Positions 15,325 through 64,000 of a stretch of 64,000 bases of DNA are shown here, piece by piece. The position numbers and the translations under genes are program-made. Location of the stretch: NCBI RefSeq assembly GCF_902652685.1, contig NZ_CACRUY010000010.1:1-64000 (forward strand), given 5' to 3'. The notes under the pieces are model-generated. The model saw only the letters and a list, made by a program, of their open reading frames with translations. It made no database searches and was not told the origin of the DNA. Position 1 is the stretch's first letter, and each line of letters begins with the position of its first letter. The DNA is from Mycobacterium sp. Marseille-P9652 (GTDB lineage: Bacteria > Actinomycetota > Actinomycetes > Mycobacteriales > Mycobacteriaceae).

Positions 15325-15343
15325 CGCCGCCACCTTCCCGTAG

Positions 15344-15685
15344 TTACTCGTAGCGCACGGTCACCGAAGCGGTGTCCGGTACGCCCTGGCACGTCAGAAT
15401 GTAACCCTCGGCCACCTCGTCGTCGTCGAGCGCGTCGTTGACCCGCATCGTCGCGTGGCCTTCGACCAGCCGCGCCATGCACGTGCCGCAGTTGCCCGCC
15501 TCGCAGTTGAACGGCGGCTCCAGCCCGGCCCGCCGCGCGCTCTCCAACAGCGTCTCGCCGGGCACCAACGGCACCGAAACCTTCTTGCGGTCCAGGTGAA
15601 TGGTCACCGTGCCGCTCACGGCCGCGTCGCATGCCGGGTCTGTCACCGGTGCCGTCTCCTCGATCTGCGCGGTGACCGTCCCCAT
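15344..15685 (-). CDS. [2Fe-2S] plant-type ferredoxin
   Basis: 113 residues from ATG 15685, which has GGAGG 8 bases upstream. The cluster ligands are Cys61, Cys66, Cys69 (CEAGNCGTC) and Cys99 (LTCQG): the C-x4-C-x2-C-x29-C pattern of plant and oxygenase-type ferredoxins. It would deliver electrons to an oxygenase. None is encoded beside it. The Rieske oxygenase at 55850 and the P450 at 63148 share its operator motif, so either could be its partner; that is inference. No reductase gene is nearby. Confidence 0.85.
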   Translation of the reverse strand: MGTVTAQIEETAPVTDPACDAAVSGTVTIHLDRKKVSVPLVPGETLLESARRAGLEPPFNCEAGNCGTCMARLVEGHATMRVNDALDDDEVAEGYILTCQGVPDTASVTVRYE

Positions 15686-15723: not shown

Positions 15724-15738
15724 GAGAATAGTATTCTC
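15724..15738. promoter_or_regulatory. Site A: perfect palindrome GAGAATAGTATTCTC
   Basis: A 7-bp perfect dyad about a central G, between the divergent ferredoxin and AMP-ligase operons. An additional ATTCT half-site lies at 15711-15715. Its TAGTAT can serve as a -10 box, with TTGCAT at 15707-15712 as -35 (16-base gap), so a bound repressor would block the rightward promoter. The same 15-mer recurs at 50364. Confidence 0.75.
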
Positions 15739-15808
15739 ATCAAGCGATAGGATCTTCTCAAGCTGTGTGGACGTCGGGTCGACCCGGTCTGTCACGGGAG
15801 GGCGGGAT

Positions 15809-17224
15809 GTGACCGAGCCGGCGGCGCTCGCGTTCGAGGAACGGCGGTACGGCCTGCCCGAGCTGGACGCGCTCGCCGACGGGTGGGCCGCGGCCCTGGC
15901 CGGGAGCGGTGTCAGGGAGCACCAACGCGTCGCGGTCATGTCGTCCAACCGGCCGGAGTTCGTCGCGGCCCTGCTGGGGATCTGGCGGCTGGGCGCGACG
16001 GCGGTGTTGCTCAGCCCCGCCTGGCGGCGCGAGGAGGTCGACCACGCGCTCGCGCTGACCCGGCCCACCCACGCCGTCGGCGACCACCCGGTGCTGGGCG
16101 AGGCGATGCCGATGCTGCACCTCGACGAACCCCGGCCCCCCGCGAGCCCGACTTCGGCTGCCCACCAGCCGAACACGGACGCCGTGCTGGTGTTCAGCTC
16201 CGGCACCACCGGCCTGCCGAAGGCCGTCCGCCACACCCACGCGTCACTGGACGCCGCCGTGCGGCACTGGCGGGGAGCCCTACGCATGACCGGGCGCGAC
16301 CGGATCCAAGTCGCCACCCCGCCCTCGCACATCCTCGGGCTGCTGAACATCTTGACGGCGCTGAGGACCGGCGCCGGCCTTCGGCTGCATCACCGATTCG
16401 ACGTCGACAGGATGCTCCACCACATCGAAAGCGACCGCATCACCATCGAAATGGTGGTCGGGCCCATCGCCCTGGCGCTCGCCTCCCATCCCGCCCTCGA
16501 GTCCTACGACTTGTCGTCGCTGCGATTCCTGATGTGGGGCGCGACGCCCGTGAGCGCCGACGTCGCCGAGGCGGTGACCGCGCGCGTCGGCGTCGGTTGG
16601 GTGCCCGCCTACGGCACCACCGAACTGCCGGTCATCGCGTGCAATCCGCTGCGCGGGGCGCGGCTCGACGCGGTGGGGCGCGCGGTTCCGGGCGTGGACC
16701 TGCGGGTGGTCGCACCCGAGACGCGGGAGCCGGTGGGCGCGGGCCGGATCGGTGAGATCGAGGCCCGTTCGGCATCGCTGATGGCCGGGTACCTGCCGCC
16801 CGAGGCGACGGCCGAGGCCGTTTGCGACGGCTGGTACCGCACGGGGGACGTCGGCTGGCTCGACGGGGAGGGGTGGTTGCGGATCACCGATCGGTTGAAG
16901 GAGATGATCAAGGTCCGCGGATTTCAGGTCGCCCCGGCGGAGGTCGAGATGGTGCTGCACGGTCATCCGGCCGTCAAGGATTGCGCGGTGTTCGGCATTC
17001 CCGACGGCGCCAACGGGGAAGCGGTCGTCGCCGCGGTCGCGACGTGTCCGTCGACCGACACCGATGCGCTGGCCGCAGAACTCGCCGCGCGCGTCGAACA
17101 GCGCCTCGCCTCCTACAAACGCCTGAGCCGCGTCGTCTTCGTCCCCGACATTCCCCGCCTGCCCTCGGGTAAGGCGCTGCGCCGAATCCTCAAGGAGCGC
17201 TATGGATGTACGTCTGACACGTGA
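15809..17224 (+). CDS. AMP-binding acyl-CoA synthetase (FadD-like)
   Basis: 471 residues from GTG 15809, which has GGAGGG about 7 bases upstream; GTG 15767 is the longer alternative. ANL-family motifs are present in order: FSSGTTGLPKAVRHTH (P-loop), a YGTTELP adenine-side motif, YRTGDVGWLD, DRLKEMIKVRGFQVAP hinge, and PSGKALRR with the catalytic Lys. It activates a carboxylic acid as its CoA ester. It leads the FadE-FadE-hydratase operon and overlaps the next gene by 23 bases. It is short for the family, mainly in the N-terminal part. Confidence 0.85.
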   Translation: MTEPAALAFEERRYGLPELDALADGWAAALAGSGVREHQRVAVMSSNRPEFVAALLGIWRLGATAVLLSPAWRREEVDHALALTRPTHAVGDHPVLGEAMPMLHLDEPRPPASPTSAAHQPNTDAVLVFSSGTTGLPKAVRHTHASLDAAVRHWRGALRMTGRDRIQVATPPSHILGLLNILTALRTGAGLRLHHRFDVDRMLHHIESDRITIEMVVGPIALALASHPALESYDLSSLRFLMWGATPVSADVAEAVTARVGVGWVPAYGTTELPVIACNPLRGARLDAVGRAVPGVDLRVVAPETREPVGAGRIGEIEARSASLMAGYLPPEATAEAVCDGWYRTGDVGWLDGEGWLRITDRLKEMIKVRGFQVAPAEVEMVLHGHPAVKDCAVFGIPDGANGEAVVAAVATCPSTDTDALAAELAARVEQRLASYKRLSRVVFVPDIPRLPSGKALRRILKERYGCTSDT

Positions 17225-18107
17225 GCAGCAGCAGCTGCGCGACGCCGCCGCCAAGCTGGCCGACGACCTGGGCCCGGCGGCCGTGCAGGATCTCGCCGAC
17301 GACGGCCGAATCACGCGGCTGGACAAGCAGATCGACCGCACCGGGTGGCGGTCACTGCGCTCCGACGGGGCGTCCGGCGTCGAAGTCGCCATCATCGCCG
17401 AGGAACTGGGCCGCCGGGTGGTCGACGCGCCGTTTCTGGGTCCGATACTGGCCGACGACCTCGCGCGCCACGTCGACGCCGACAGCCGGGCGGCGACCGT
17501 CGCCTTCGGTGACCGGGTGCTGGACGGGCGGGGCGCTCGCCGCGCCCTGTGGTTGTCCGGTCACACGGTCATGGGGGCGGGTGTCGAGGACGTTCGCACC
17601 GGTGCGGACCTGACGCGCGCCGACGCGGACGTGGCGGGTACGCCGGCCGCCCTCGGCGAGGTGAGCGCGGAGACGGCCGCCCGGTGGCGGGCCCTTGCGT
17701 TGGTTGCCACCACCGCCGATCTCGTCGGGATCGCCCGCGGCGCCCACGCCGTCGCGTGCGACTACGCGAAAATCCGCGAGCAATACGGCAAGCAGATCGG
17801 GTCCTATCAGGCGGTCGCACACATGCTGGCCGAAACCCTTGCGCTGATCGAGGGTTCGGTGAGCGTGCTGCGCCATGCCGCCTGGGCGGTCGACGAGCTG
17901 CCGGTGGCCGAGGCCGTCCGCGCGGCTCAGATCGCGAAGGTCTACTGCGCGCGCGCCGCGCGCACGGTCTGCGAAACGGCGGTGCAGGTGCACGGCGGCA
18001 TCGGCAACACCTGGGACTGCATGGTTCACGTCTATCTGCGCCGCGCGCTGACGTCGACCGAGCTGTGGCCCGCCCGACTGAAGGAGATCGACTTTGGACT
18101 TTCGTGA
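17202..18107 (+). CDS. Acyl-CoA dehydrogenase, small subunit of a heteromeric pair
   Basis: 301 residues from ATG 17202. It opens MDVRLTREQQQLRDAAAKLA and keeps the C-terminal helical domain with QVHGGIGNTWD. Length is well below the usual ~380, as in the alpha2beta2 FadE pairs known from mycobacterial sterol degradation, where the two subunits share FAD sites. In those the catalytic base is the Glu of GGIGFTWE; here the aligned residue is Asp. It overlaps the next acyl-CoA dehydrogenase by 14 bases, supporting a complex of the two. Confidence 0.82.
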   Translation: MDVRLTREQQQLRDAAAKLADDLGPAAVQDLADDGRITRLDKQIDRTGWRSLRSDGASGVEVAIIAEELGRRVVDAPFLGPILADDLARHVDADSRAATVAFGDRVLDGRGARRALWLSGHTVMGAGVEDVRTGADLTRADADVAGTPAALGEVSAETAARWRALALVATTADLVGIARGAHAVACDYAKIREQYGKQIGSYQAVAHMLAETLALIEGSVSVLRHAAWAVDELPVAEAVRAAQIAKVYCARAARTVCETAVQVHGGIGNTWDCMVHVYLRRALTSTELWPARLKEIDFGLS

Positions 18108-19182
18108 CTCTCCCGACGAGGCGGCCTTCCGCGAGCGCTTGCGCGGGTGGCTTTCCCTGCACGCCAAGGATTTTCCCAGCTCCGGCGACGAGTATTGGGC
18201 CCGGCAGGCGCAGTGGCACCAGGCGCTCTACCGCGCAGGCTTCTTCGGTGTGTCGTGGCCACGGGAGTACGGCGGCCAGGAGCTGGCGCCGGTATACGAC
18301 GTCATCGTCGACGAGGAGCTGGCGCGCGCCGGCTCCCCGCCCCGGCCGAGCGTCGGGTATCTGGTCTTCGGCATCGGACGGCACGCGAGCGACGAGCTGA
18401 GGCAACGCTTTCTGCCCGGCATCATCGACGGCACCGAGCGGTGGTGCCAGGGCTTCAGTGAACCCGGCGCGGGTTCGGACCTGGCGTCGCTGACCACCAC
18501 CGCCCGGCGCGACGGCGACACCTACGTGGTGCAGGGGCACAAGATCTGGACCAGCTACTCCGACGTCGCCGACTACTGCCTGCTGCTGGCCCGCACCGAT
18601 CCCGACGCGAAGCGCCACCGCGGCCTGTCGGCCTTCGTCTTGGACATGAAACAGCCCGGCGTGCAACAGCGTCCGCTGCGCATGATCAACGGCGTCACCA
18701 ACGAATTCGGCCAGGTGTTCTTCGACGGCGCGACGGTGCCCGCAAGCCGGATGGTCGGCGCTCCTGGGGACGGCTGGGCGGTCGCCATGACCGTCGTCGG
18801 GCACGAGCGCGAGCCGTCGACGCTCGGTTACGCGGCCCGGTACGGCAAGCTCGTGCGGAACATGTTCGCGCGCTGCGACGGTGACGTGCCCGACGACCTC
18901 GCGTGGGCGGCCGTCGAGTCCGAGATGCTGACGCACCACGTGCGTCGCCGGCTCTCGGAGCAGCTGGACGGCGTCTCGCACGGCCCCGAAGGGTCGCTCG
19001 ACAAGCTGCTGATGACCTGGGTCGAGCAGTCCGTCGGCCATGCGGCGCTGGCGGTTTCGGGAACCCGCGACCCGGATCTGCTCAGCGCCTACCTGTACAG
19101 CCGCGCGCAGAGCGTGATGGGCGGCACCTCGCAGATACAGAAGAACATCATCGCCTCGCGGATCTTGGGATTGTCGGAGTGA
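18094..19182 (+). CDS. Acyl-CoA dehydrogenase, large subunit of a heteromeric pair
   Basis: 362 residues from TTG 18094, with AAGGAG 8 bases upstream. FAD/substrate motifs are WCQGFSEPGAGSDLASL and GHKIWTSYSD, and the C-terminus has MGGTSQIQKNIIASRILGL. It lacks the GGxG-x-x-E catalytic stretch, which its partner at 17202 supplies in altered form. It would oxidise the acyl-CoA made by the ligase at 15809. The hydratase gene follows after 63 bases. Confidence 0.85.
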   Translation: MDFRDSPDEAAFRERLRGWLSLHAKDFPSSGDEYWARQAQWHQALYRAGFFGVSWPREYGGQELAPVYDVIVDEELARAGSPPRPSVGYLVFGIGRHASDELRQRFLPGIIDGTERWCQGFSEPGAGSDLASLTTTARRDGDTYVVQGHKIWTSYSDVADYCLLLARTDPDAKRHRGLSAFVLDMKQPGVQQRPLRMINGVTNEFGQVFFDGATVPASRMVGAPGDGWAVAMTVVGHEREPSTLGYAARYGKLVRNMFARCDGDVPDDLAWAAVESEMLTHHVRRRLSEQLDGVSHGPEGSLDKLLMTWVEQSVGHAALAVSGTRDPDLLSAYLYSRAQSVMGGTSQIQKNIIASRILGLSE

Positions 19183-19245
19183 TCGCGAACGCGGGCGAAG
19201 CCCGGGTGAAGCGGGTCACGACGATAGAAATAGAAGGAGTCTGAC

Positions 19246-20013
19246 GTGTACGACATGCCCGCGGAAGTCGAAGTCCGGGCCGAAGGTCCGCTGCGGATCA
19301 TCACCCTGAACCGGCCGGACTCACTGAACTCGGTCAACGACGACCTGCATGTCGGACTGGCGCGGCTCTGGCAACGGCTGACCGACGACCCCAGCGCCCG
19401 CGCCGCCGTCATCACCGGGGCGGGCAGGGCGTTCTCGGCCGGCGGCGACTTCGCCTATCTCAAGGAGCTTTCGGCGGATGCCGACCTGCGCGCCAAGACG
19501 ATCCGGGACGGACGCGAGATCGTGCTGGGCATGGCGCGGTGCCGAATCCCGGTGGTGGCGGCCGTCAACGGGCCGGCCGTCGGGTTGGGCTGCAGCCTGG
19601 TCGCGCTGAGCGACATCGTGTACATCGCCGAGGACGCCTACCTCGCCGACCCGCACGTGCAGGTGGGGTTGGTGGCCGCCGACGGCGGACCGCTGACGTG
19701 GCCGCTGCACATCAGCCTGCTGCTGGCCAAGGAGTACGCCCTGACCGGCACCCGCATCAGCGCGCAACGCGCCGTCGAACTGGGGCTGGCCAACCATGTG
19801 GCGGCCGACCCGCTGGCCGAGGCGATCGCCTGCGCCAAGAAGATCCTCGAGTTGCCGCAGCAGGCGGTCGAAAGCACCAAGCGGGTGCTCAACATTCACC
19901 TGGAGCGGGCGGTGCTGGCCAGCCTGGACTACGCCCTGTCGGCCGAGCACCAGTCGTTCACCACCGACGACTTCCGCTCGATCATCACCAAGCTGAGCGC
20001 CGGGAAGAACTGA
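19246..20013 (+). CDS. Enoyl-CoA hydratase/isomerase (EchA-like)
   Basis: 255 residues from GTG 19246 with AGAAGGAG upstream. Crotonase motifs: ITLNRPDSLNSVND, the oxyanion-hole loop AFSAGGDFAYLKE, and VNGPAVGLGCSLVALSDI. The Glu of LLAKEYALTG matches the hydratase Glu164. The position of Glu144 (usually PEI) reads PHV, so the second catalytic acid appears missing and isomerase or lyase chemistry is possible. It closes the operon begun at 15809. Confidence 0.83.
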   Translation: MYDMPAEVEVRAEGPLRIITLNRPDSLNSVNDDLHVGLARLWQRLTDDPSARAAVITGAGRAFSAGGDFAYLKELSADADLRAKTIRDGREIVLGMARCRIPVVAAVNGPAVGLGCSLVALSDIVYIAEDAYLADPHVQVGLVAADGGPLTWPLHISLLLAKEYALTGTRISAQRAVELGLANHVAADPLAEAIACAKKILELPQQAVESTKRVLNIHLERAVLASLDYALSAEHQSFTTDDFRSIITKLSAGKN

Positions 20014-27412: not shown

Positions 27413-27478
27413 ATGGTAGGCCGAAAACGAGAATAAGATTTCCAGGTCTCCGGTTGCCTACCGGCGTTGAAAGGAATC

Positions 27479-48544: not shown

Positions 48545-48555
48545 ACGACGGAACC

Positions 48556-49395
48556 CTATTTCAGGCAGCCGCCCGCATCGACGGGCAGGGTGACACCGGT
48601 GATGTAGCGGGACTCATCGGATGCCAGGAATAGAACCGCGTTGCTGATGTCCTGCGGCTCCACCCACGGAATCGGCAGGGTGTGGAACAGCTGGCAGATC
48701 GGGGCCATGTCGTCGGGCCCCGGGTTCTCCAGGTCGGGGCGGAACATCTTGAACGTGCCGTCGTTGTGGAGCATCGGCGTCTTCACGTGGGTCGGATGCA
48801 CGGAGTTGACGCGAATCATGTGCTGCCCCAATTCGACCGCGAAAGCCCGCATCAGCCCGACCACCCCGTGTTTGGCGGCGACGTAGTGACCGGTGTGCGG
48901 GTAGGCCTTCAGGCCTCCGACGGAACTGGTCAACACGATCGATCCGCCGCGCCCGCCAGAGAGGATGTGCGGCACAGCGGCTTTCACCGTCTTCCACACC
49001 CCGGACAGGTTGACGTCGATCATCTGCGACCAATCCGCCTCGCTGGTCTTGTCCAGCGTCTCGCCGCCGTTGCCGATGCCGGCATTGGCAACAACGATGT
49101 CCAGGCGGCCCAACTGCTCGACGCCCGCGTCGACGGCGGCCTTCATGGCGTCGTAGTCGCGCACGTCGACCTCGGCCGTGAAGATGCGGCGGTTGTGGCC
49201 CTTGACGAGGTCCGCTGTCTCGGCGAGGTCCTCGGGCGTCGACGCCGGGATGGTGGTGTTCTCGACGATGGGCTTGCAGACGTCGATGGCGATGATGTCG
49301 GCGCCTTCCTGCGCCAGCCGCACCGCGTGGCTGCGGCCCTGGCCCCGCGCGGCCCCGGTGATGAAAGCGACCTTGCCTTCGACGCGTCCCGTCAT
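48556..49395 (-). CDS. Mycofactocin-coupled SDR oxidoreductase
   Basis: 279 residues from ATG 49395. The opening GKVAFITGAARGQGRSHAVR and DIIAIDVCKP are hallmarks of the mycofactocin-dependent SDR group, which has an insertion after the second strand (here ENTTIPASTPEDLAETADLV) that shields a non-exchangeable NAD. Catalytic Ser in TSSVGG and Tyr/Lys in YVAAKHG. Known members pass electrons from an alcohol to mycofactocin. No mft biosynthesis gene is in the window. Promoter site E lies about 140 bases upstream. Confidence 0.88.
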   Translation of the reverse strand: MTGRVEGKVAFITGAARGQGRSHAVRLAQEGADIIAIDVCKPIVENTTIPASTPEDLAETADLVKGHNRRIFTAEVDVRDYDAMKAAVDAGVEQLGRLDIVVANAGIGNGGETLDKTSEADWSQMIDVNLSGVWKTVKAAVPHILSGGRGGSIVLTSSVGGLKAYPHTGHYVAAKHGVVGLMRAFAVELGQHMIRVNSVHPTHVKTPMLHNDGTFKMFRPDLENPGPDDMAPICQLFHTLPIPWVEPQDISNAVLFLASDESRYITGVTLPVDAGGCLK

Positions 49396-49531
49396 GCCTG
49401 CCCTCGTTTCCTGACCCGGGCGGCATGCCCCCACGGGTCACCCGACCGATGCCGCCTTCTGCACTCTGTCATCGGCGCCCGACGAGTGTCAATGCCGAAT
49501 CCGTTTTTGTCATCTCGCACTCTCATCACGA

Positions 49532-49546
49532 GAGAGGCACATTCTC
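49532..49546. promoter_or_regulatory. Site E: GAGAGGCACATTCTC, relaxed copy of the regulon box
   Basis: It keeps GAGA-N5-ATTCTC of sites A-C with a different centre, and equals site D (63105) at 14 of 15 bases. An extra CTCTC half-site lies just upstream. It is in the 195-base gap upstream of the leftward mycofactocin-type SDR. Confidence 0.6.
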
Positions 49547-49590
49547 GCGACGGCACGCCGAACCGGTCAGTGCTGCGGGGTGGCTGGCGG

Positions 49591-50307
49591 CTAGCCGACG
49601 AATCCTCGTGAGCAGAAGTCCCACACCTCGTCGGCGGTGATGGGATGAACGGTCGCATCGTCGGAACCGCCGCTGGACTGGGCGATGAACATCACAGTCT
49701 GCATCGTCATCGCCGCGACGCGCTTCGGATTCACGCCCGAGCGAAGTTCGCCCGCGTCACCGGCGGCCTCCATGAGCTCCGTCAGCAAAGCCAGCAACGG
49801 CGCATGAGCGATCTTGACCTCGGCCGGATGCGTGACCAGCAACCGCGGCGCGAAGTCGGTGAACAGCGGCCGCTTGGCCGTCGGGTCGGGCCGGGAGGCC
49901 TCGTAAAGCAGCTCGACGGCCACCTTGAGCCGCTCCAGCGGATCTGAATGGCTCTCCGTGGCGGCGCGGATCTGGTCCGCCGACCGGCTCAGCGCGTCTT
50001 CGAAGAGGGCCAGGAGAAGTTCGTGCTTGCCGTCAAACTGCAGGTAGAAGCTGCGCAGCGACTGACGTGAGCGGTCGACGACCTCCTGCACGGTAAAGTC
50101 TGTGCTGCCCTTCTCGATGATGATGGCTTGCGCCGCGTCGAGAAATCGCTGAACGCGTTGGGCCGCCCGCAGTTTCGCGGTCTTGATGGACCGCTCGACC
50201 GCGCGCTGCTTCCAGGCCGGTTCTTCGCTCGGGCTTGTCACGGCCGGCTCGCCTGATTGCCGTGCAGGGAGAACATGATTGGACTCTACCGGAGAACGCC
50301 GTGACAT
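49591..50307 (-). CDS. TetR-family regulator, candidate master of the GAGAATAGTATTCTC regulon
   Basis: 238 residues from ATG 50307; GTG 50328 adds seven. The N-terminal ~40 residues are a basic, disordered-looking extension. DNA-binding domain: RVQRFLDAAQAIIIEKGSTD, then VQEVVDRSRQSLRSFYLQFDGKHELL, an unusual recognition helix for TetR proteins. The C-terminus ends WDFCSRGF. It is divergent from the acyl-CoA dehydrogenase, with the perfect palindrome (site B) between, which indicates autoregulation. The ligand is probably an acyl-CoA or substrate of the pathway. Confidence 0.85.
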   Translation of the reverse strand: MSRRSPVESNHVLPARQSGEPAVTSPSEEPAWKQRAVERSIKTAKLRAAQRVQRFLDAAQAIIIEKGSTDFTVQEVVDRSRQSLRSFYLQFDGKHELLLALFEDALSRSADQIRAATESHSDPLERLKVAVELLYEASRPDPTAKRPLFTDFAPRLLVTHPAEVKIAHAPLLALLTELMEAAGDAGELRSGVNPKRVAAMTMQTVMFIAQSSGGSDDATVHPITADEVWDFCSRGFVG

Positions 50308-50363
50308 CGCTGCGCTCGACCCCCTCACGGATGCCGTGTCTGAGATTGTAACTTTCTCGATGT

Positions 50364-50378
50364 GAGAATAGTATTCTC
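50364..50378. promoter_or_regulatory. Site B: perfect palindrome GAGAATAGTATTCTC
   Basis: Identical to site A over 15 bases. TTGTAA (50346-50351) and TAGTAT (50369-50374) with a 17-base gap form a rightward promoter whose -10 lies inside the palindrome. It is between the TetR gene and the divergent acyl-CoA dehydrogenase. Confidence 0.8.
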
Positions 50379-50482
50379 TTACATTCGCTTATGGAAGCGG
50401 AAATGTTTAGAAGGACTCGTGCCGCGCGCGGAAATCGCGATCTACCGTCCGCGCACACGCGCAGCAATTCGCGGGGAGCGCC

Positions 50483-51670
50483 GTGCAACTGACCTTTGAC
50501 CCTGACGTGGAGGCGTTTCGCGCGGAATTCGCGGCCTTCCTGGACGCGCACCTGCCTTCCGAGGCCGAGGCGGTCGAGCGCCCGCGGTCGAGCTCGCACG
50601 TTCCCGGTTGGGCCCGCCGTTGGCAGCGGCTGCTGTTCGACAGCGGTTGGCTGGTGCCCGGCAACCCGCCGGAGTTCGGGGGGCGCAACGCGACGCTGCT
50701 GCAGCAATACGTGTACATGGAGGAGTTGGGGCGTCGCCGCATTTATCAAAGCTTCAATCCGCAAGGGGTCGGCATCGTCGCGGCGTCGTTGTTGACCTTC
50801 GGTACGCCGGAGCAGAAACAGCAATGGGTAGTGCCCATTCTGCGGGCGGACATCACCGCGTCGCTGGGCATGAGCGAACCGGGGGCGGGATCGGACCTGG
50901 CGTCGCTCAAGACGCGGGCGGTGCTCTCCTCCGACTCGCAAGGTGACCACTTCGTCGTCAATGGGCAGAAGGTATGGACCTCCGGCGCCCACGACGCCGA
51001 CGTGTTGCTGACCTTCGTGCGCACGGACCCGAATGTCCCGAAGCACAAGGGCATCAGCGCATTGATGATTCCGACCGACACCCCGGGCGTGGTGCGCAGG
51101 CCGTTCGCGTCGATGTGTGACAACGACGAGCTCGACTTCAACGAGGTGTTCTTCACCGACGCGCGGGTGCCGGCCGAGAACCTCGTCGGTCAGCTGAACG
51201 GCGGCTGGCGGGTGGCGACCGGTTCCCTCGGGCACGAGCGCATCATGCTGTGGACGGGTTACGTCGACTTGTTGCACGAGCTGACAATCGATTTCGACCC
51301 GTCCGGGCCGCTGCAGCGCGATCACTTTGCGACCTTGATCATGGACGCGTACGCGCTGCGGCTCCTCGGGTCGGCGGCCCTGGCACGGGCCGCTCGCGGG
51401 GAAGAGGACGTGCCCGCCCAGTCGGTCCTGAAGCTGCTGGGCTCCGAGGCCCTGCAGCGCGCGTCGGAGGATGCGCTGAACGCCGCGGGCGCCGACGGGC
51501 TCGTCGCCCGGGCGGTCACCGCCCCCTTCGCGCCGCTGAACCTCGACAGTCACTACCGCAGCTGGTTCGACCGGTATGCGCGCAGCTTCGCGGCGACCAT
51601 CGCCGGCGGAACGTCGGAGATCCAGCGCAACATCATCGCCGAGCGGGTGCTCGGACTGCCGCGCAACTAG
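50483..51670 (+). CDS. Acyl-CoA dehydrogenase (FadE-like)
   Basis: 395 residues from GTG 50483, with GGGGAG upstream. SLGMSEPGAGSDLASL, NGQKVWTSGAHDAD and the C-terminal GGTSEIQRNIIAERVLGL are clear FadE motifs. It resembles the large subunit of heteromeric pairs; no small subunit is adjacent, though one is encoded at 52019. Transcribed from the promoter overlapped by site B, so direct TetR control is likely. The leader is about 100 bases. Confidence 0.87.
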   Translation: MQLTFDPDVEAFRAEFAAFLDAHLPSEAEAVERPRSSSHVPGWARRWQRLLFDSGWLVPGNPPEFGGRNATLLQQYVYMEELGRRRIYQSFNPQGVGIVAASLLTFGTPEQKQQWVVPILRADITASLGMSEPGAGSDLASLKTRAVLSSDSQGDHFVVNGQKVWTSGAHDADVLLTFVRTDPNVPKHKGISALMIPTDTPGVVRRPFASMCDNDELDFNEVFFTDARVPAENLVGQLNGGWRVATGSLGHERIMLWTGYVDLLHELTIDFDPSGPLQRDHFATLIMDAYALRLLGSAALARAARGEEDVPAQSVLKLLGSEALQRASEDALNAAGADGLVARAVTAPFAPLNLDSHYRSWFDRYARSFAATIAGGTSEIQRNIIAERVLGLPRN

Positions 51671-51930: not shown

Positions 51931-52018
51931 GGCCAACAAATTTAGCGCCCAGCGTCGACCTGTCGTGCGAGCGGGCGGACATTTGCCGCAACCAAGTCGA
52001 CGTTCGGCCTGTCGAAAG

Positions 52019-55539: not shown

Positions 55540-55542
55540 CGT

Positions 55543-55866
55543 TCAGATCACCGGTTCCCGGATCAGCTCGACCCAGGCCGCCCCGCTGTCCGGTACGCGC
55601 GGCTGCTTCCACGCCTCGATCGGAAACGACACCATGACCAGCGACTGCATGATGTGCATGAGCGTCCTGGCGTCCTCGGGAAGATCGTCGAGCGGGTACT
55701 GGTCACAGTAGGCGATCACGTCGTTCATGCGGGGGAACGCGGCGTCGTAGAACTGCTGCATCTCGGCCATGGTCGAGGCCAGCCGCTTGGCGTAGCGCTC
55801 CGGTTCGGTCGCGAGGTCCCAATCCAGATAGGGCTCCAGGTCGGCGAATTCAGACGGTAGCGCCAT
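55543..55866 (-). CDS. Conserved hypothetical protein of the Rieske operon
   Basis: 107 residues from ATG 55866, overlapping the Rieske gene by 17 bases. All-helical composition, Trp/Tyr/Asp-rich: LEPYLDWDLATEPERYAKRL, then QQFYDAAFPRMNDVIAYCDQ. No cysteine pair, metal site or membrane segment. I do not recognise the family. Constant coupling to the oxygenase suggests an accessory or assembly role. Confidence 0.6.
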   Translation of the reverse strand: MALPSEFADLEPYLDWDLATEPERYAKRLASTMAEMQQFYDAAFPRMNDVIAYCDQYPLDDLPEDARTLMHIMQSLVMVSFPIEAWKQPRVPDSGAAWVELIREPVI

Positions 55867-57127
55867 TGGTCTGGTATCCCTTCACGTAGTCGCCGGTCGT
55901 CTTGTGCAGATGGCGGATCAAGACTTCCTGGTCGCACAGCAGGAACTCCTTGACGGCCCGTGTGCCGATCATGGTCTGGGTCGCTTCCAGGGTGTTGGCG
56001 TCCTGCAGCGCGTACTCCTTGAACGTCACCGCGGCCAACTCCTGGGCGAGGCGTTCGCGCGCGTTGCGTGGCGGCACGAAATACAGCGAGCACTCGAAGA
56101 TGTGCTTGTCCACGGCCGTCGGCCAGTAGTGGTAGGTCAAGTACCAGCCGGGTTCCCAGATCAGCAACATGAAGTTCGGATAGAACAGCCACGAGTCGAT
56201 GCCCCACTGCGGCACCCTTTTCACGTTGACCCCGGGCGGCAGTTCCAGGTTCTCGATGACCTCCGGCTTGTCCCACGGACCGAACAAGCCGCTGCGCAGC
56301 ACCTGGTCCATCGGCTTGACCATGGACAGGTCGGCGGGCGGAGCCTGACCACCCCATGTCGACTGCAGGCTGTGCGGGCCGGCCACCTCGTAGTGCAGCG
56401 CCTCGTAGCCGTACTTCTGGATCTTGGCCGCTTCCTCCCTGGTGTACTGCCCCTGGTGCAGGATCGGCGCGTGGTAGAACTCGACGAACGCGTCGATGAA
56501 CAGCTTCCAGTTGCTGCCGACCTCGGCCCGGTAGGAGTAGGTCTCCGTCATCGCGCCGAAGGGGTAGCCCTCGATGCCCTTGGCGAGCGGCCCCAGGTAG
56601 TCGGTGAGCGGCGCCGTGGTGTTGTCGAAGTTGATGAAGATGAAGCCTTCCCAGACCTCGCAGCGCACAGGCACGAGCCCGTACTGGCTCTTGTCGAGGT
56701 CGAAGAACTCGTCCTCCTGCTGGACGAAGGTCAGATCACCGTCCAGGCTGTACCGCCACGCGTGGTACTTGCAGGTGAACTGCCGGCAGGTGCCCGAGGT
56801 CTCCTCGTGCGGAAAGTCGTTCCACACCAGCTTGTTTCCGCGGTGGCGGCACACGTTGTGGAATGCCTTGACGGCCCCGTCCTTGGTCTTGACGACGATC
56901 ACCGACATGCCGGGGCCCGCCGAGGGCAGCTCCTTGGTGAAGTAGCTGCCGGTGCGCGGGAGCCGCTCCACGCGGCCGACGTTGAGCCAGGTCCGTTTGA
57001 AGATCGCCTCGCGCTCCGCTTCGAAGAAGGCCGGATCGATCGAGTCGCTGTAATCCACCGGGGCGGTGCCCAATTCGGGATAGTGCTGCGTCCAGCTGCC
57101 CTCGGCCGGTTTGGTGAAGTGGGGCAC
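55850..57127 (-). CDS. Rieske non-heme iron oxygenase, alpha subunit
   Basis: 425 residues from GTG 57127, with GAGAGGTAGC upstream. Rieske centre: Cys-x-His in CRHRGNKLVW and Cys-x2-His in FTCKYHAWRY (about 85-120). Catalytic iron region: FIDAFVEFYHAPILHQ, giving the Asp/His-His facial triad. It would hydroxylate or dealkylate an aromatic or sterol-like ring. It has no beta subunit or reductase beside it; the 2Fe-2S ferredoxin at 15344, under an equal operator, is a candidate donor. Confidence 0.88.
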   Translation of the reverse strand: MPHFTKPAEGSWTQHYPELGTAPVDYSDSIDPAFFEAEREAIFKRTWLNVGRVERLPRTGSYFTKELPSAGPGMSVIVVKTKDGAVKAFHNVCRHRGNKLVWNDFPHEETSGTCRQFTCKYHAWRYSLDGDLTFVQQEDEFFDLDKSQYGLVPVRCEVWEGFIFINFDNTTAPLTDYLGPLAKGIEGYPFGAMTETYSYRAEVGSNWKLFIDAFVEFYHAPILHQGQYTREEAAKIQKYGYEALHYEVAGPHSLQSTWGGQAPPADLSMVKPMDQVLRSGLFGPWDKPEVIENLELPPGVNVKRVPQWGIDSWLFYPNFMLLIWEPGWYLTYHYWPTAVDKHIFECSLYFVPPRNARERLAQELAAVTFKEYALQDANTLEATQTMIGTRAVKEFLLCDQEVLIRHLHKTTGDYVKGYQTNGATV

Positions 57128-57131
57128 GTTG

Positions 57132-57671
57132 CTACCTCTCTGTTCGGTCCTGCTCGACCTCGACGCCGAAAGTGTTGATTGCCATCGCGAGTCCCGCATA
57201 GCCGCCGACGGTGAAGACGAGGTCCATCAGTTGCCGCTCGTCGAGCCGTCCGCTCAACGCGGCCCAGGTTTCGTCGGAGAGGTCGGACCGCTCCTCGAGC
57301 TCGTCGACGGCGGTGATCACCGCACGGTCGAACTCGTCGTCCGCGGCGCCGGTGCGGGTGGCGGCGATATCGGAATCCGACAGCCCCGCCTGCCGCGCCA
57401 GCTTGACGTGATGCGTCCATTCGTAGTCGCACCGGCGCCGATGGGCGACCCGCAGGACGGCCAGCTCGCGGACGCGGGGCGGGAGAGTGGAGCCGTAGAG
57501 CAGGTAGCCGCTGAAACGGAGGTACGCGCGCGCCAGCTTGGGGTGGCGCGCGAGAGTCGACATGAGGTTGCCGGCGTCCTTCGGGTTGCGCCGCTCCGGC
57601 GGCAGCATGCCGGACAGTGAGTGCTCGACAGCCTCGTCCCACTGGTCCGCGGGCAGCGGCTGCAGGCGCAT
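57132..57671 (-). CDS. Carboxymuconolactone decarboxylase/AhpD-family protein
   Basis: 179 residues from ATG 57671; GAGGAG upstream supports this start over longer ones, which run into site C. The core YLLYGSTLPPRVRELAVLRVAHRRRCDYEWTHHVKLAR (quoted only by its ends here: YLLYGS to HVKLAR) is the CMD fold. The usual Cys-x2-Cys of AhpD is reduced to one Cys followed by EWTHH. Roles in this family include decarboxylation and peroxide reduction. First gene of the Rieske operon. Confidence 0.8.
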   Translation of the reverse strand: MRLQPLPADQWDEAVEHSLSGMLPPERRNPKDAGNLMSTLARHPKLARAYLRFSGYLLYGSTLPPRVRELAVLRVAHRRRCDYEWTHHVKLARQAGLSDSDIAATRTGAADDEFDRAVITAVDELEERSDLSDETWAALSGRLDERQLMDLVFTVGGYAGLAMAINTFGVEVEQDRTER

Positions 57672-57714
57672 CCGCAATCTCCTCTCGGCGTCCACGCGGC
57701 TACTCTCGGTTATG

Positions 57715-57729
57715 GAGAATCGTATTCTC
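57715..57729. promoter_or_regulatory. Site C: GAGAATCGTATTCTC, regulon box
   Basis: It differs from sites A and B at one base. It sits 44 bases upstream of the Rieske operon start and about 240 bases upstream of the rightward amidohydrolase at 57971, in a 299-base gap that has no other gene. Confidence 0.75.
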
Positions 57730-57849
57730 ATTTCCAACCAACAGACTTGCACGAATCGAGCGGCCGGTCAATCCCGGCGCCGAATACCTCGGCGCGATTT
57801 GAGTCGATCGCTCTCGTCGAGACCTGCCGAGACGGTCGCTGGATGTTGA

Positions 57850-57866: not shown

Positions 57867-57970
57867 GCTAGTTTTCAAGAAGGGATCTCGGCTGCGCGGC
57901 GTCCGTGTGCCGTGTGGGAACAGAAGGATTCGCACGAAACCAGATGGACTCGATGGAGAGGGTAGTGGCC

Positions 57971-59269
57971 ATGAACAAAGAGGACATGATGCTCATCAGC
58001 GTCGACGACCACACGGTCGAGCCGCCGGACATGTTCAAGAACCACCTCCCCAGCAAGTACCTGGACGACGCGCCCCGGCTGGTGCACAACCCCGACGGCT
58101 CGGACATGTGGAAGTTCCGCGACACCGTCATCCCGAACGTGGCCCTCAACGCCGTGGCCGGGCGGCCCAAGGAGGAGTACGGCATCGAGCCCACGGGTCT
58201 CGACGAGATCCGGCCCGGCTGCTACAACGTCGACGAGCGCGTCAAGGACATGAACGCCGGCGGCATCCTGGCCTCGATCTGCTTCCCGTCCTTCCCGGGC
58301 TTCGCCGCGCGGCTGTTCGCGACGGACGACCCCGAATTCTCGCTGGCGCTTGTGCAGGCCTACAACGACTGGCACATCGAGGAGTGGTGCGGCGCCTACC
58401 CGGCGCGATTCATCCCGATGGCGATACCGGTGATCTGGGACGCCGAGACGTGCGCCGCCGAGGTGCGGCGGGTCTCGAAGAAGGGCGTGCACGCGCTGAC
58501 CTTCACCGAGAACCCCGCCGCGATGGGCTATCCCAGCTTCCACGACGAGTACTGGAACCCCCTGTGGAAAGCATTGGTGGAGACCGACACCGTCATGAAC
58601 ATCCACATCGGTTCCTCGGGTCGGTTGGCCATCACCGCGCCGGATGCGCCGATGGACGTGATGATCACGCTGCAGCCCATGAACATCGTGCAGGCCGCCG
58701 CGGACCTGCTGTGGTCGCGGCCGATCAAGGAGTACCCGGACCTGAAAGTCGCCCTGTCCGAGGGCGGGACCGGCTGGATCCCGTACTTCCTGGAGCGCGC
58801 CGACCGGACCTATGAGATGCATTCCGCGTGGACGCATCAGAACTTCAAGGGCAAGCTGCCCAGCGAGGTCTTCCGCGACCACTTCCTCACGTGTTTCATC
58901 AGCGACAAGGTCGGTGTGGCGTTGCGCAACATGATCGGCATCGACAACATCTGCTGGGAGGCCGACTATCCGCACAGCGACTCGATGTGGCCCGGCGCGC
59001 CGGAGGAGCTGTGGGACGTCTTGAGCGCGAACAACGTTCCCGACGACGAGATCAACAAGATGACGTACGAGAACGCGATGCGCTGGTACTCGTTCGACCC
59101 GTTCACCCACATCTCGCGCGAACAGGCGACGGTCGGCGCGCTGCGCAAGGCCGCCGAGGGGCACGACGTGTCGATCAAGGCGAAGGGCCACGACAAGGAC
59201 TCCAGAGGCGGGTCGTCCTTCGCGGAGTTCGCGGCCAACGCGAAGGCCCTCACCGGCAATAAGGATTAA
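57971..59269 (+). CDS. Amidohydrolase_2-family protein
   Basis: 432 residues from ATG 57971, chosen for GGAGAGGG 8 bases upstream; ATG 57944 and 57953 also exist. LISVDDHTVEPPDMF at the front and CWEADYPHSDSMWP near the end are the mycobacterial COG2159 pattern, with His/Asp metal ligands. INIHIGSSG is a further ligand strand. It may decarboxylate or hydrolyse a ring-cleavage acid. The C-terminal ~60 residues are a Lys/Gly-rich tail. The acyl-CoA dehydrogenase gene at 59390 follows after 120 bases. Confidence 0.83.
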   Translation: MNKEDMMLISVDDHTVEPPDMFKNHLPSKYLDDAPRLVHNPDGSDMWKFRDTVIPNVALNAVAGRPKEEYGIEPTGLDEIRPGCYNVDERVKDMNAGGILASICFPSFPGFAARLFATDDPEFSLALVQAYNDWHIEEWCGAYPARFIPMAIPVIWDAETCAAEVRRVSKKGVHALTFTENPAAMGYPSFHDEYWNPLWKALVETDTVMNIHIGSSGRLAITAPDAPMDVMITLQPMNIVQAAADLLWSRPIKEYPDLKVALSEGGTGWIPYFLERADRTYEMHSAWTHQNFKGKLPSEVFRDHFLTCFISDKVGVALRNMIGIDNICWEADYPHSDSMWPGAPEELWDVLSANNVPDDEINKMTYENAMRWYSFDPFTHISREQATVGALRKAAEGHDVSIKAKGHDKDSRGGSSFAEFAANAKALTGNKD

Positions 59270-59389
59270 CGGCGGGGTTGGCTCGGCCGGGGTGCGCCGC
59301 GTCGACATTGCGATGAGGGTCGCGATTTTCGGCACATTCACGACCACCACGGCAATCTCGCCGTTGGCAATGAAGAGGAGATCCCAGCA

Positions 59390-60571
59390 GTGCCCGGCGA
59401 CGGAATGAACTTCGAGCTGACCGAGGACCAGGAGCTGATCCGCCGGTCGGTCGCGGAGTTGGCGCGCAAGTTCGACGACCACTACTGGACGGAGAAGGAC
59501 CAGGCGCACGAATTCCCGACGGAGTTCTACCGGGCCATCGCCGACGGCGGCTGGCTGGGCATGACGATCCCCACCGAGTACGGGGGGCACGGCCTGGGCA
59601 TCACTGAGGCCACGATCCTGCTCGAGGAGGTCGCCAAGTCCGGCGGCGGCATGAACGCGGCCAGCTCGATCCACCTGTCCATCTTCGGCATGCAGCCGGT
59701 GGTGGTGCACGGGTCCGAGGAACTCAAGGCGCGCACGCTGCCCAGCGTCGCCACCGGCGAGGTGCATGTCTGCTTCGGCGTGACCGAACCCGGTGCGGGG
59801 CTTGATACCTCGCGCATCACCACCTTCGCCAAGCGCGACGGCGATCGCTACGTCGTCAACGGTCGCAAGGTCTGGATCTCCAAGGCGATGGAGTCAGACA
59901 AGATCCTGCTCCTCACGCGCACGCAGGCCTACGACGAGGTGGCCAAGAAGACCGACGGCATGACGTTGTTCCTCACGGACCTCGACCGCAGCCGCGTCGA
60001 CATCCGTCCGATCCGCAAGATGGGACGCAACGCCGTCAGCTCCAACGAGCTGTTCATCGACAACCTGGAGGTGCCGGTCGAGGACCGAGTCGGGGAGGAG
60101 GGCAAGGGATTTCAGTACATCCTCGACGGACTCAACCCCGAGCGGATGCTGATCGCCGCCGAGGCGCTCGGCATCGGCAGGGTGGCGCTGGAGAAGGCCG
60201 TCAAGTACGCCAACGACCGCGAGGTCTTCGGCCGGCCCATCGGCATGAACCAGGGCATCCAGTTCCCGCTCGCGGACTCGCTGGCCCGGCTCGACGCCGC
60301 CGAGCTGATGCTGCGCAAGGCCACCTGGCTCTACGACAACGGCAAACCCTGTGGACGCGAGGCGAATACGGCCAAGTACCTGTGCGCCGACGCCGGCTTC
60401 ACCGCCGCCGACCGCGCCCTGCAGACCCACGGCGGCATGGGCTACGCGGAGGAGTACCACGTCGCCCGGTACTTCCGCGAGGCCCGGCTGATGAAGATCG
60501 CGCCGATCAGCCAGGAGATGATCCTCAACTTCCTGGGTTCGCATACCCTGAAGCTGCCGAGGAGCTACTGA
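59390..60571 (+). CDS. Acyl-CoA dehydrogenase (homotetramer type)
   Basis: 393 residues from GTG 59390 with GAGGAG 9 bases upstream; ATG 59405 is possible. It has the full set: CFGVTEPGAGLDTSRI, NGRKVWISKAMESD, REVFGRPIGMNQGIQFPLAD and THGGMGYAEEYHVARYFREAR, in which the Glu before Tyr is the catalytic base. Unlike the paired FadE genes it should work alone. It probably oxidises a short or branched acyl-CoA from the regulon. Confidence 0.88.
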   Translation: MPGDGMNFELTEDQELIRRSVAELARKFDDHYWTEKDQAHEFPTEFYRAIADGGWLGMTIPTEYGGHGLGITEATILLEEVAKSGGGMNAASSIHLSIFGMQPVVVHGSEELKARTLPSVATGEVHVCFGVTEPGAGLDTSRITTFAKRDGDRYVVNGRKVWISKAMESDKILLLTRTQAYDEVAKKTDGMTLFLTDLDRSRVDIRPIRKMGRNAVSSNELFIDNLEVPVEDRVGEEGKGFQYILDGLNPERMLIAAEALGIGRVALEKAVKYANDREVFGRPIGMNQGIQFPLADSLARLDAAELMLRKATWLYDNGKPCGREANTAKYLCADAGFTAADRALQTHGGMGYAEEYHVARYFREARLMKIAPISQEMILNFLGSHTLKLPRSY

Positions 60572-60594
60572 CGGTAAGTTGCTACTCGTCGAAT

Positions 60595-60640
60595 GTGCAC
60601 TGATCGCGATTTTTTCGTGGTTTCATCGCGCTGAGTGCAC
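60595..60640. promoter_or_regulatory. Concentric dyad upstream of thiolase
   Basis: GTGCAC (60595-60600) and GTGCAC (60635-60640), with CGCGAT (60605-60610) and ATCGCG (60625-60630), share the centre 60617.5. The TTTTTT at 60609 region adds an A/T core. It lies in the 105-base gap before the thiolase; operator is more likely than terminator. Confidence 0.5.
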
Positions 60641-60676
60641 GCTCGGCGCAGGGGCGCATAGGAGCGGAGTGGGCGC

Positions 60677-61825
60677 ATGCGTGAGACAGTCATCGTCGAG
60701 GCCGTGCGGACGCCGGTGGGCAAGCGCAACGGCGCCCTGTCGGGCATGCACGCCGCCGACCTGTCCGCGGTCGTCCTGAACGAGCTGCTGGACCGCACCG
60801 GCATCGAACCGACGATCGTCGACGACGTCATCTGGGGATGCGTGTCCCAGGTGGGCGACCAGTCGAGCAACATCGGGCGGTACGCCGTCCTCGCCGCGGG
60901 CTGGCCCGAGAGCATCCCCGGCACCACGGTGAACCGTGCGTGCGGCTCCAGCCAACAGGCGCTCGACTTCGCGGTGCAGGCGGTGATGTCCGGCCAGCAG
61001 GACGTCGTCGTGGCCGGCGGCGTCGAGGTGATGAGCCGGGTCCCCCTCGGCGCGGCCCGCGCGACGGGAATGCCGTACGGCCCGAAAGTCCTTGCGCGCT
61101 ATGACGATTTCTCCTTCAACCAGGGGCTCTCGGCCGAGATGATCGCCAAGAAGTGGGGCTTTCCCCGGGCCGCCCTGGACGAGTACTCGGTCCGGTCGCA
61201 CGAACGGGCGGCCGCCGCCCAGGACGCCGGCGCCTTCACCGACCAGATCGTGCCCGTGTTCGCCGACGGCGGCGCCCCCGTCGCCGCGGACGAGGGCGTG
61301 CGGCGGGGGTCCACCGTCGAGAAGCTGGCCGCGCTCAAGCCCGCGTTCGTCGAGGACGGCGTCATCCATGCCGGCAACTCGTCGCAGATCTCCGACGGCG
61401 CCGCCGCCCTGCTGGTGACGACGTCCCAGATGGCCGTCGAGTTGGGACTCACGCCGATCGTGCGCTACCGGGCGGGCGCGGTCACCGGCGCCGACCCCGT
61501 GCTCATGCTCACCGGCCCGATCCCGGCCACCGAGAAGGTCCTCAAGAAGGCCGGCGTCCCGCTGGCGGAAGTGGGCGTGTTCGAGGTGAACGAGGCATTC
61601 GCCCCGGTGCCGCTCGCGTGGATCGCGGAGACGGGCGCCGACCCGGCGCGGGTCAATCCGCTCGGGGGCGCGATCGCGCTTGGTCACCCGCTGGGCGCCT
61701 CCGGCGCGGTGCTGATGACCCGCATGGCGCACCACATGCGCGACCACGGCATCAGGTACGGGCTGCAGACCATGTGCGAGGGCGGCGGCACGGCCAACGC
61801 CACGCTGGTCGAACTCGTCCGCTGA
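60677..61825 (+). CDS. Thiolase (acetyl-CoA acyltransferase, FadA-like)
   Basis: 382 residues from ATG 60677. Nucleophile Cys89 in NRACGSSQQA, NEAFAPVPLAW, His in GGAIALGHPLGASGA, and Cys in MCEGGGTANA complete the thiolase site. It would release acetyl- or propionyl-CoA in the last step of beta-oxidation. It closes the set of hydrolase and dehydrogenase genes beginning at 57971. Confidence 0.9.
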   Translation: MRETVIVEAVRTPVGKRNGALSGMHAADLSAVVLNELLDRTGIEPTIVDDVIWGCVSQVGDQSSNIGRYAVLAAGWPESIPGTTVNRACGSSQQALDFAVQAVMSGQQDVVVAGGVEVMSRVPLGAARATGMPYGPKVLARYDDFSFNQGLSAEMIAKKWGFPRAALDEYSVRSHERAAAAQDAGAFTDQIVPVFADGGAPVAADEGVRRGSTVEKLAALKPAFVEDGVIHAGNSSQISDGAAALLVTTSQMAVELGLTPIVRYRAGAVTGADPVLMLTGPIPATEKVLKKAGVPLAEVGVFEVNEAFAPVPLAWIAETGADPARVNPLGGAIALGHPLGASGAVLMTRMAHHMRDHGIRYGLQTMCEGGGTANATLVELVR

Positions 61826-63104: not shown

Positions 63105-63119
63105 GAGAGGGACATTCTC
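63105..63119. promoter_or_regulatory. Site D: GAGAGGGACATTCTC, relaxed regulon box
   Basis: It equals site E at 14 of 15 bases and matches GAGA-N5-ATTCTC of sites A-C. It follows TAATAC (63091-63096), a likely -10 box, so it overlaps the start of transcription of the P450 gene 29 bases downstream. Confidence 0.6.
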
Positions 63120-63147: not shown

Positions 63148-64000
63148 GTGAACGAGTTCGCCGACATGGACTTCTTCAAGGACGCCCGGCTCGTCGAGGA
63201 TCCCTACCCGTACTACGAGTCCCTGCGGCAGCGGTGCCCTGTCACCCGGGAAAGCCACCACGGGGTGACGATGGTGACCGGCTGGGACGAGGCCTGCGCC
63301 GTGCTGAACGACGCCGAAACCTTTTCGTCATGCGTCTCGGTGACCGGCCCGTTCCCCGGCTTCCCGGTGTCGCTGGAGGGTCTGGAGAACAGCGACATCA
63401 CCGAGCTGATCGAGCAGCATCGCGACGAGCTGCCCTTCAGCGACCAGCTGCCCACCCTCGACCCGCCGACGCACACCAATCACCGCGCGCTGCTCATGCG
63501 GCTGATCACCCCCAAGCGCCTCAAGGAGAACGAGGACGCCATGTGGCTGCTCGCCGACCGGGTGCTCGACGACTTCCTGGCCCCCGGTGAGGGCGACTTC
63601 ATCAAGGCCTTCGCCGGCCCCTTCACTTTGCTGGTCATCGCCGACCTGCTCGGCGTGCCCGACGAGGACCGCGACCAGTTCGTCAAGGGCATCGGTCGCC
63701 ACGCGGGCGGCGGCGTGGGCGGCACCGGGGACAAGGCGCTGGCGCACAGCCCGCTCGAGTTCCTCTACGGCACCTTCGCCGACTACGTGCGCGACCGTCG
63801 CCGCGAGCCCCGGGACGACGTGCTGACCGGCCTGGCCACCGCCACATTCCCCGACGGATCCGTCCCCGACGTCGAGGACGTCGCGCGCGTTGCGACCAAC
63901 GTCTTCTCCGCGGGCCAGGAGACGACGGTGCGACTGCTGGGCGCCGCGCTGCAGATCATCGGCGAACGCCCCGACATCCAGCAACAACTGCGCAAGGACC
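63148..64000 (+). CDS. Cytochrome P450, N-terminal part (runs off the window)
   Basis: 284 codons from GTG 63148 without a stop to the edge. FFKDARLVEDPYPYYESLRQ is a typical P450 start, LPTLDPPTHTNHRALLMRLI is the C-helix region and SAGQETT is the I-helix oxygen-activating motif. The ExxR and heme Cys lie beyond the window. Its operator (site D) places it in the proposed regulon, where it could do the first hydroxylation. Confidence 0.87.
   Translation, partial: MNEFADMDFFKDARLVEDPYPYYESLRQRCPVTRESHHGVTMVTGWDEACAVLNDAETFSSCVSVTGPFPGFPVSLEGLENSDITELIEQHRDELPFSDQLPTLDPPTHTNHRALLMRLITPKRLKENEDAMWLLADRVLDDFLAPGEGDFIKAFAGPFTLLVIADLLGVPDEDRDQFVKGIGRHAGGGVGGTGDKALAHSPLEFLYGTFADYVRDRRREPRDDVLTGLATATFPDGSVPDVEDVARVATNVFSAGQETTVRLLGAALQIIGERPDIQQQLRKD

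Follow-up and report, generated by a model that had tools for sequence, protein, structure and literature searches.

A conserved palindromic operator, GAGAAT-N3-ATTCTC, and its predicted autoregulated TetR repressor over an Mce importer and a degradation route in mycobacteria

Results

The palindrome and its neighbourhood

The window analysed here is a stretch of 64,000 nucleotides, positions 1-64000 of the 131,372-bp contig C10 in a genome of 5.70 Mb. Scanning it for the 15-mer GAGAATAGTATTCTC returned perfect matches at 15724-15738 and 50364-50378 and a copy with one mismatch (A to C at the seventh base) at 57715-57729, just as a first-pass annotation of this DNA had reported; no match beyond these three copies appeared in the 64 kb at up to three mismatches. 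The annotation's description of the 57715 copy as imperfect holds for the 15-mer only, since the pattern that is conserved is GAGAAT-N3-ATTCTC with a free centre, to which this copy is a full match. The sites and the genes around them are listed below; several of the sites in the window were recognised only because orthologs keep better copies of them.

15344..15685, minus strand: 2Fe-2S ferredoxin, start at 15685 or 15712
15724..15738, unstranded: operator S1, GAGAATAGTATTCTC, exact, between the ferredoxin (minus) and the FadD operon (plus)
15767..20013, plus strand: FadD, two FadE-type genes and an enoyl-CoA hydratase, one operon as judged by spacing
27429..27443, unstranded: weak operator S2, GAGAATAAGATTTCC, 2 mismatches, between an IclR gene (minus) and a FAD monooxygenase gene (plus)
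48556..49434, minus strand: SDR of the carveol dehydrogenase type
49532..49546, unstranded: weak operator S3, GAGAGGCACATTCTC, 2 mismatches, upstream of the SDR gene 48556-49434 and just behind the TetR-1 gene
49591..50307, minus strand: TetR-1, a TetR-family regulator of 238 aa, ATG at 50307, reading frame open to GTG 50328
50342..50358, minus strand: second conserved element, GAGAAAGTTACAATCTC, on the TetR-1 side, containing the -10-like TACAAT (50345-50350)
50364..50378, unstranded: operator S4, GAGAATAGTATTCTC, exact, in the TetR-1/FadE divergent promoter
50483..51670, plus strand: FadE (acyl-CoA dehydrogenase), nearest solved relatives Tcur3483 and 4x28
55850..57671, minus strand: CMD-family protein and Rieske oxygenase alpha subunit
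57715..57729, unstranded: operator S5, GAGAATCGTATTCTC, exact to the N3 pattern, between the CMD/Rieske operon (minus) and an amidohydrolase (plus)
57905..61825, plus strand: amidohydrolase (PF04909), FadE and thiolase
63105..63119, unstranded: weak operator S6, GAGAGGGACATTCTC, 2 mismatches, 28 nt before the P450 start at 63148
63148..64000, plus strand: cytochrome P450, running past the window to contig position 64428

S1, S4 and S5 all lie between divergent genes and are intergenic once the starts are set, in keeping with the earlier placement of the three copies at divergent promoters. For S5 this holds with the CMD gene beginning at ATG 57671, a possible start 43 nt from the site; the longest open reading frame reaches 57752 and would cover it. 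S4 is 56 nt from the TetR-1 ATG (50307) and 104 nt from the FadE GTG (50483). Pfam and NCBIfam scans identified ferredoxin, FadD, several FadE, enoyl-CoA hydratases, thiolase, the Rieske oxygenase alpha subunit, CMD-type proteins, PF04909 amidohydrolases, P450s, SDRs and an Mce operon. The gene list of the first-pass annotation is thus correct except at 15004-15333, called EthD-like there, for which no Pfam family matched at 1e-3. No structured RNA in Rfam matched 48000-64000 at the gathering score. Separately, an A/T-rich inverted repeat of the type ATATCGCAC...GTGCGATAT lies at about 27379-27406, between the IclR and FAD-monooxygenase genes and just before S2; it may be the operator of the IclR protein itself, in which case the S2 promoter may have two regulators.

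Distribution in the genome

GAGAAT-N3-ATTCTC has six exact copies in the 5.70 Mb genome, at 15724, 50364, 57715, 78297 and 105223 on C10 and at 4226 on C104, and eight copies at up to one mismatch, those with one mismatch being C10 76153 and C63 12785. Five of the six exact copies sit inside one 90-kb stretch of C10, and the scatter over unrelated places that the first-pass annotation had named as evidence against a regulon is not what the genome-wide search found. The reversed pattern gave no genome match at up to one mismatch and six at up to two, versus 69 for the operator pattern; C10, at 2.3% of the genome, has 16 of those 69. We also compared the operator with 59 palindromes made from permuted half-sites. 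On C10 the observed counts at up to 0, 1 and 2 mismatches were 5, 6 and 16, versus control means of 0.02, 0.05 and 1.02 (maxima 1, 1 and 6). Dinucleotide shuffles (n=100) gave a mean of 0.14 matches to GAGAATAGTATTCTC, and at most 2, versus 6 strand-matches observed, which bears out the earlier opinion that chance recurrence is very unlikely. The alternative that the palindrome recurs by chance, or has a non-regulatory origin as the end of a mobile element or as a structural feature, has nothing in its favour beyond the fact that a palindrome is repeated. Chance is refuted by the shuffled and permuted controls, the three window copies have (by eye) no longer flanking repeat in common, and the operator stands at corresponding promoter positions across three genera where permuted controls are near zero; we therefore give this explanation practically no credence.

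Outside the window, the C10 78297 site lies 31 nt before the FadE ATG at contig 78343. The site at C10 105223 is covered by a called ORF that probably extends too far; 22 nt downstream of the site there is an ATG that has a GGAGG ribosome-binding site. The C104 4226 site is within the called ORF of a phosphotransferase-type gene. Starting that gene at the in-frame ATG 24 nt past the site would leave the site upstream, but in three relatives the protein alignments extend across it, and to judge from these it may be inside coding sequence. Leaving aside 105223, only one of the 16 sites on C10 is inside a gene: the 2-mismatch match at 8637, which lies in a mutase gene and was excluded from the regulon. 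Two further sites with 2 mismatches, at contig 107928 and 123654, were judged doubtful and left out of the targets. As a side observation, 84% orthologs of the methylmalonyl-CoA-mutase-type gene at window 8085-9734, in two genomes of another genus (G378 and G290; loci L187 and L198), have an exact operator about 100-120 bp upstream; the window gene has no upstream operator.

Across 87 unique exact sites, position -1 of the centre is most often A (53%) and seldom T (3%), with a preference for T at +1; in effect the half-site reads GAGAATV. The flanks 9-11 bases from the centre are weakly A/T-rich. A is at the seventh or T at the ninth base in 69 of these 87 sites. We had considered that the free centre might serve to complete a -10 box (TANNNT) on the strand of the target gene, but either base yields a -10-like hexamer on both strands, and the idea was dropped as non-discriminating.

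Conservation of the sites

The named loci are the best 80 of 394 TetR-1 loci, all from mycobacteria (one labelled Mycolicibacterium) and 86-96% identical. An exact operator starts 42-70 nt before the TetR-1 match in 79 of the 80, the sole exception, without a promoter copy, being M. tilburgii (L093). Over the 1.53 Mb of these loci there are 196 exact copies, and 194 of them stand at three orthologous places: 79 at the TetR-1 promoter, 69 at the CMD/amidohydrolase distance (73 of the 80 loci reach at least 9 kb on that side) and 46 behind TetR-1 on the SDR side, with 2 elsewhere. The 59 permuted controls gave one match in total across the same loci. This recurrence at orthologous places supports the earlier proposal of a regulon and shows it to be conserved.

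The same places are recognisable at greater distance. We fetched 74 regions, comprising 66 around exact copies in 12 genomes with TetR-1 from three genera, six around single copies in genomes that lack it and one each from genomes G280 and G299. In the 12 genomes exact copies precede orthologous genes, the conserved targets being TetR-1 itself, the ferredoxin/FadD pair, CMD or Rieske with the amidohydrolase, the FadE pair at contig 78343, the amidohydrolase at contig 105260 and the C104 gene. Copies without a recognisable C10 or C104 neighbour were seen at L155, L167, L188 and L193 in genomes with TetR-1 and at L202, L203, L205 and L206 in genomes without it. S1 has exact counterparts at orthologs in G061, G029, G065, G049, G034, G101, G191, G166, G132 and G110. 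The weak sites likewise have better relatives: the S2 place is exact in G065 and G049 (2 mismatches in G034); S3 has exact counterparts in G061 and G034, and 46 of the 80 named loci have an exact copy behind the TetR-1 gene; and at the S6 place there are sites with 1-2 mismatches in G061, G132, G110 and G034 and an exact one in G101. Beyond the window, the contig 76153 site recurs in G061, G132 and G110, and the pair at contig 103716/103738 has both members in G061, one in G132 and a 1-mismatch site in G378. Six long segments were compared, namely C10 and five further genome segments, one of them from another genus; at up to two mismatches the five hold 14-16 sites, versus control means of 1.1-1.9 (maxima 7-9).

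The TetR-1 gene and its promoter

TetR-1 has one TetR_N domain (Pfam PF00440; E 2e-7, 31.1 bits versus a cut-off of 24). In the 79 loci with an operator at its promoter, the centre, which was not selected for, has outer bases A in 100% and T in 99%, and 14 of the 15 columns from +22 to +36 relative to the operator start are 97-100% conserved. Judged by its sequence, TACAAT in the second element would make a good -10 hexamer of the TetR-1 promoter, and the operator would then cover the -35 region. The 17-bp block at 50342-50358 is itself almost invariant in the 79 loci and has GAGA...TCTC ends like those of the operator at a wider spacing; it may be a second TetR site, or merely the -10 region. 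A tblastn search of 72,556 plasmid records found no TetR-1 match at 1e-20, and on that ground a plasmid-borne regulator was rejected.

Which regulator binds the operator

The first-pass annotation had taken the TetR gene beside the 50364 copy as the natural regulator, and TetR-1 is indeed the best-supported candidate, with the promoter copy in the named loci and no multi-copy genome lacking the gene. We examined 148 genomes of the genus and 251 genomes of the family in 31 genera, calling TetR-1 in the latter at 1e-40. An ortholog-grade TetR-1 match is present in 122 of the 148 genus genomes; at least two exact operator copies occur in 118 of the 122, versus none of the 26 without TetR-1, the exceptions being G026 and G063 with one exact copy and G056 and G089 with none. 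In the family TetR-1 was found in 64 genomes of nine genera, with at least two exact copies in 54 of the 64, versus 0 of 187 without it (16 of the 187 have one exact copy). TetR-1 is the only one of four cluster regulators tested to be present in every multi-copy genome. The corresponding figures with and without the gene are 51/55 versus 3/196 genomes for TetR-2 (61921-62535), 49/52 versus 5/199 for TetR-3 and 25/33 versus 29/218 for the IclR protein (26676-27341), which was rejected as the regulator on this co-occurrence.

TetR-2 follows the motif nearly as closely, so co-occurrence alone does not cleanly separate it from TetR-1, and position helps to tell the two apart. In the rival reading TetR-2 binds the operator and TetR-1 only counts among its targets. 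In favour of this, TetR-2 is present in 51 of the 54 genomes with at least two copies (and in four others), and its gene is inside the cluster and adjoins S6. A single exact copy accompanies TetR-1 in seven family genomes, and in four of them (G220, G235, G346 and, 12 kb off, G294) that copy is away from TetR-1, which also suits TetR-2. In the other three (G280, G299 and G328), however, the only exact copy is upstream of TetR-1 despite the presence of TetR-2, which is weak in G328. Moreover, G177, G262 and G226, with six, four and two copies, have no TetR-2 at 1e-40 and do have an exact copy about 60 bp before TetR-1, and the near-universal operator at the TetR-1 promoter of the named loci also argues against TetR-2 as the binding protein. 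On balance we consider it improbable that TetR-2 takes this role. Of the 64 family genomes with TetR-1, 10 have no more than one exact copy. Three of these have none: a 1-mismatch site lies 52 bp upstream of TetR-1 in G351 and only behind the TetR-1 gene in G241, and G344 has no site at up to one mismatch near TetR-1.

A division of labour is also conceivable, in which at least two TetR proteins, paralogous or cooperating, use the operator and split the targets among them; the candidates are TetR-1, its 55-65% paralogs and TetR-2. Several genomes, G310 included, have two or three TetR-1-like genes at 1e-40. The window genome, however, has one TetR-1 match at 1e-40 for its six exact copies, and we judge such sharing unlikely. 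TetR-1 acting as the regulator of the operator thus remains our preferred reading.

Three observations are recorded here in their own right. The highest number of exact operators in any genome, 14, was found in G310, which belongs to another genus and has three TetR-1-like genes. Across the family the presence of TetR-2 coincides almost perfectly with the regulon, and the protein may rule a sub-branch, for example the P450s. In G308 (L204), which has no TetR-1, an exact operator lies at a 63% ortholog of the C104 phosphotransferase-type gene.

Relation to known TetR regulons

The gene content resembles that of KstR-type regulons, and the KstR consensus TnnAACnnGTTnnA has three exact matches on the 131 kb of C10 (28304, 72481 and 76955); assignment of the operator to the KstR, KstR2 or BkaR regulon might seem natural on these grounds. 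None of the three matches is at an operator site described here, however. The KstR2 consensus AnCAAGnnCTTGnT has no exact match on C10, and the BkaR consensus GTTAnTn4AnTAAC none at up to one mismatch. All three are unlike GAGAAT-N3-ATTCTC, in agreement with the statement of the first-pass annotation that the box differs from the KstR and KstR2 motifs, and TetR-1 scores 20.6 bits on the KstR model NF033703 versus a cut-off of 280. Membership in any of the three was rejected on the operators, and for KstR on this score as well; we regard it as extremely improbable.

The likeness is one of kind. In the available excerpt of PMC1995591, KstR is an autoregulated TetR repressor whose short palindromic operator overlaps a putative -10 region, and its regulon is a large one for lipid degradation, with fadD, ech and thiolase genes and an mce operon. 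The system described here shares with it a TetR protein that is predicted to be autoregulated, a short palindrome, lipid-degradation genes and an mce operon under the same operator; it differs in the operator itself, in TetR-1 being no KstR ortholog and in its Rieske, CMD and amidohydrolase content. KstR2, according to the part of PMC3068626 that describes it, is a TetR repressor of a few divergent promoters in one cluster (15 genes, three operators), an arrangement that TetR-1 resembles with an operator other than AnCAAGnnCTTGnT. BkaR is presented in an excerpt of PMC3920632 as an autoregulated mycobacterial TetR repressor with a palindromic operator and a branched-chain keto-acid regulon; the palindrome in the regulator's own promoter is common to both mycobacterial systems, the operator and the pathway are not. 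Mce3R, as described in PMC11667970, has a double TetR motif and a non-palindromic site, unlike TetR-1 with its one TetR_N domain and palindromic operator.

Mce3R is a TetR-like repressor whose name and literature connect it with mce genes, and KstR and KstR2 helped to open up cholesterol catabolism. We found no paper containing the exact pattern string GAGAAT-N3-ATTCTC; 'GAGAAT' in the matched text of PMC8228715 and PMC6768106 is primer sequence, and the hexamer also stands in further listed papers, among them PMC4694148 and PMC8538451. None of the matches listed was recognisable as a description of the regulon; the search covered few subscription papers, so one may have been published. Earlier work on motifs conserved in mycobacteria began, as far as its excerpt goes, from M. 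tuberculosis expression data (PMC3388012) and so need not have met this pattern.

Content of the regulon

The regulon is larger than the first-pass annotation proposed: the promoters that it listed all belong, and to them are added the Mce operon, a further FadE pair, an amidohydrolase-FadD operon and the weaker sites. Two weak sites lie between an SDR gene (contig 82187, minus strand) and a CoA-transferase gene (83315, plus strand), and the same place is occupied in 6 of 6 segments. The CoA-transferase heads the Mce operon, which as read on C10 includes an MlaE permease and MlaD/Mce4_CUP1 domains, and the MceA-type protein of this operon has matches to Mce4A and to 8fed, a solved protein of the Mce family. 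Two solved relatives of the FadE beside TetR-1, 4x28 and Tcur3483, are steroid side-chain acyl-CoA dehydrogenases. At contig 68661-70322 (L016:8661-10322) one gene encodes a 553-aa protein in which a ChsH2-type DUF35 domain and a thiolase-like domain are fused. It matches both chains of 6ok1, the lipid-transfer protein and ChsH2(DUF35), which are separate there; the 6ok1 pair is an aldolase acting on steroid side chains. This gene has a 2-mismatch site upstream in G061, G110 and G132, and on C10 no site at up to four mismatches within 70200-70900. The FadE, DUF35-thiolase and carveol-dehydrogenase-type SDR components suggest, speculatively, a substrate whose skeleton, bearing an acyl side chain, is steroid-like or of another polycyclic isoprenoid type; the literature search yielded no name for it.

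Discussion

GAGAAT-N3-ATTCTC is very probably the operator of TetR-1, acting as an autoregulated repressor over an Mce importer and a degradation route. The operator, its conservation, its targets and its tie to TetR-1 are results of computation, and the mechanism that we propose on them is as follows. A TetR-1 dimer would bind the operator at its own promoter, at some ten other promoter regions spread over about 90 kb and at one on another contig, and the bound protein would block transcription by covering promoter elements, much as the excerpted account of KstR proposes (PMC1995591). An intermediate of the pathway, probably an acyl-CoA thioester, would then act as the inducer that releases TetR-1. 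The genes so controlled would form a single import-and-degradation system working like the KstR regulon with mce4, and made up of the CoA-transferase/Mce importer operon, CoA ligases, paired acyl-CoA dehydrogenases, enoyl-CoA hydratases and a thiolase, together with the Rieske oxygenase and its ferredoxin, P450, SDRs and amidohydrolases. The regulon is a new example of a KstR-type TetR regulon, a kind that is already known. The stronger reading, that this is a further KstR-class system in which one TetR repressor couples an Mce importer to the complete degradation route for a steroid-like or polycyclic isoprenoid compound with an acyl side chain, is a serious possibility that we hold at slightly less than even confidence.

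The KstR and KstR2 operators were useful for cholesterol catabolism because one motif showed which genes belong together. The operator described here offers the same handle for a second, unexplained cluster, whose TetR-1 gene is found in eight other genera as well as in most mycobacterial genomes of our sample. The operator places an Mce importer in one pathway with many genes of the FadE, FadD, Rieske, P450 and amidohydrolase types, and it could serve as a reporter in screening for the inducer and hence as a route to the substrate. Should the KstR-class reading be true, the operator map would define the pathway and make its substrate findable, and the system would be one that occurs in nine genera of the family, with a minority of mycobacteria lacking it.
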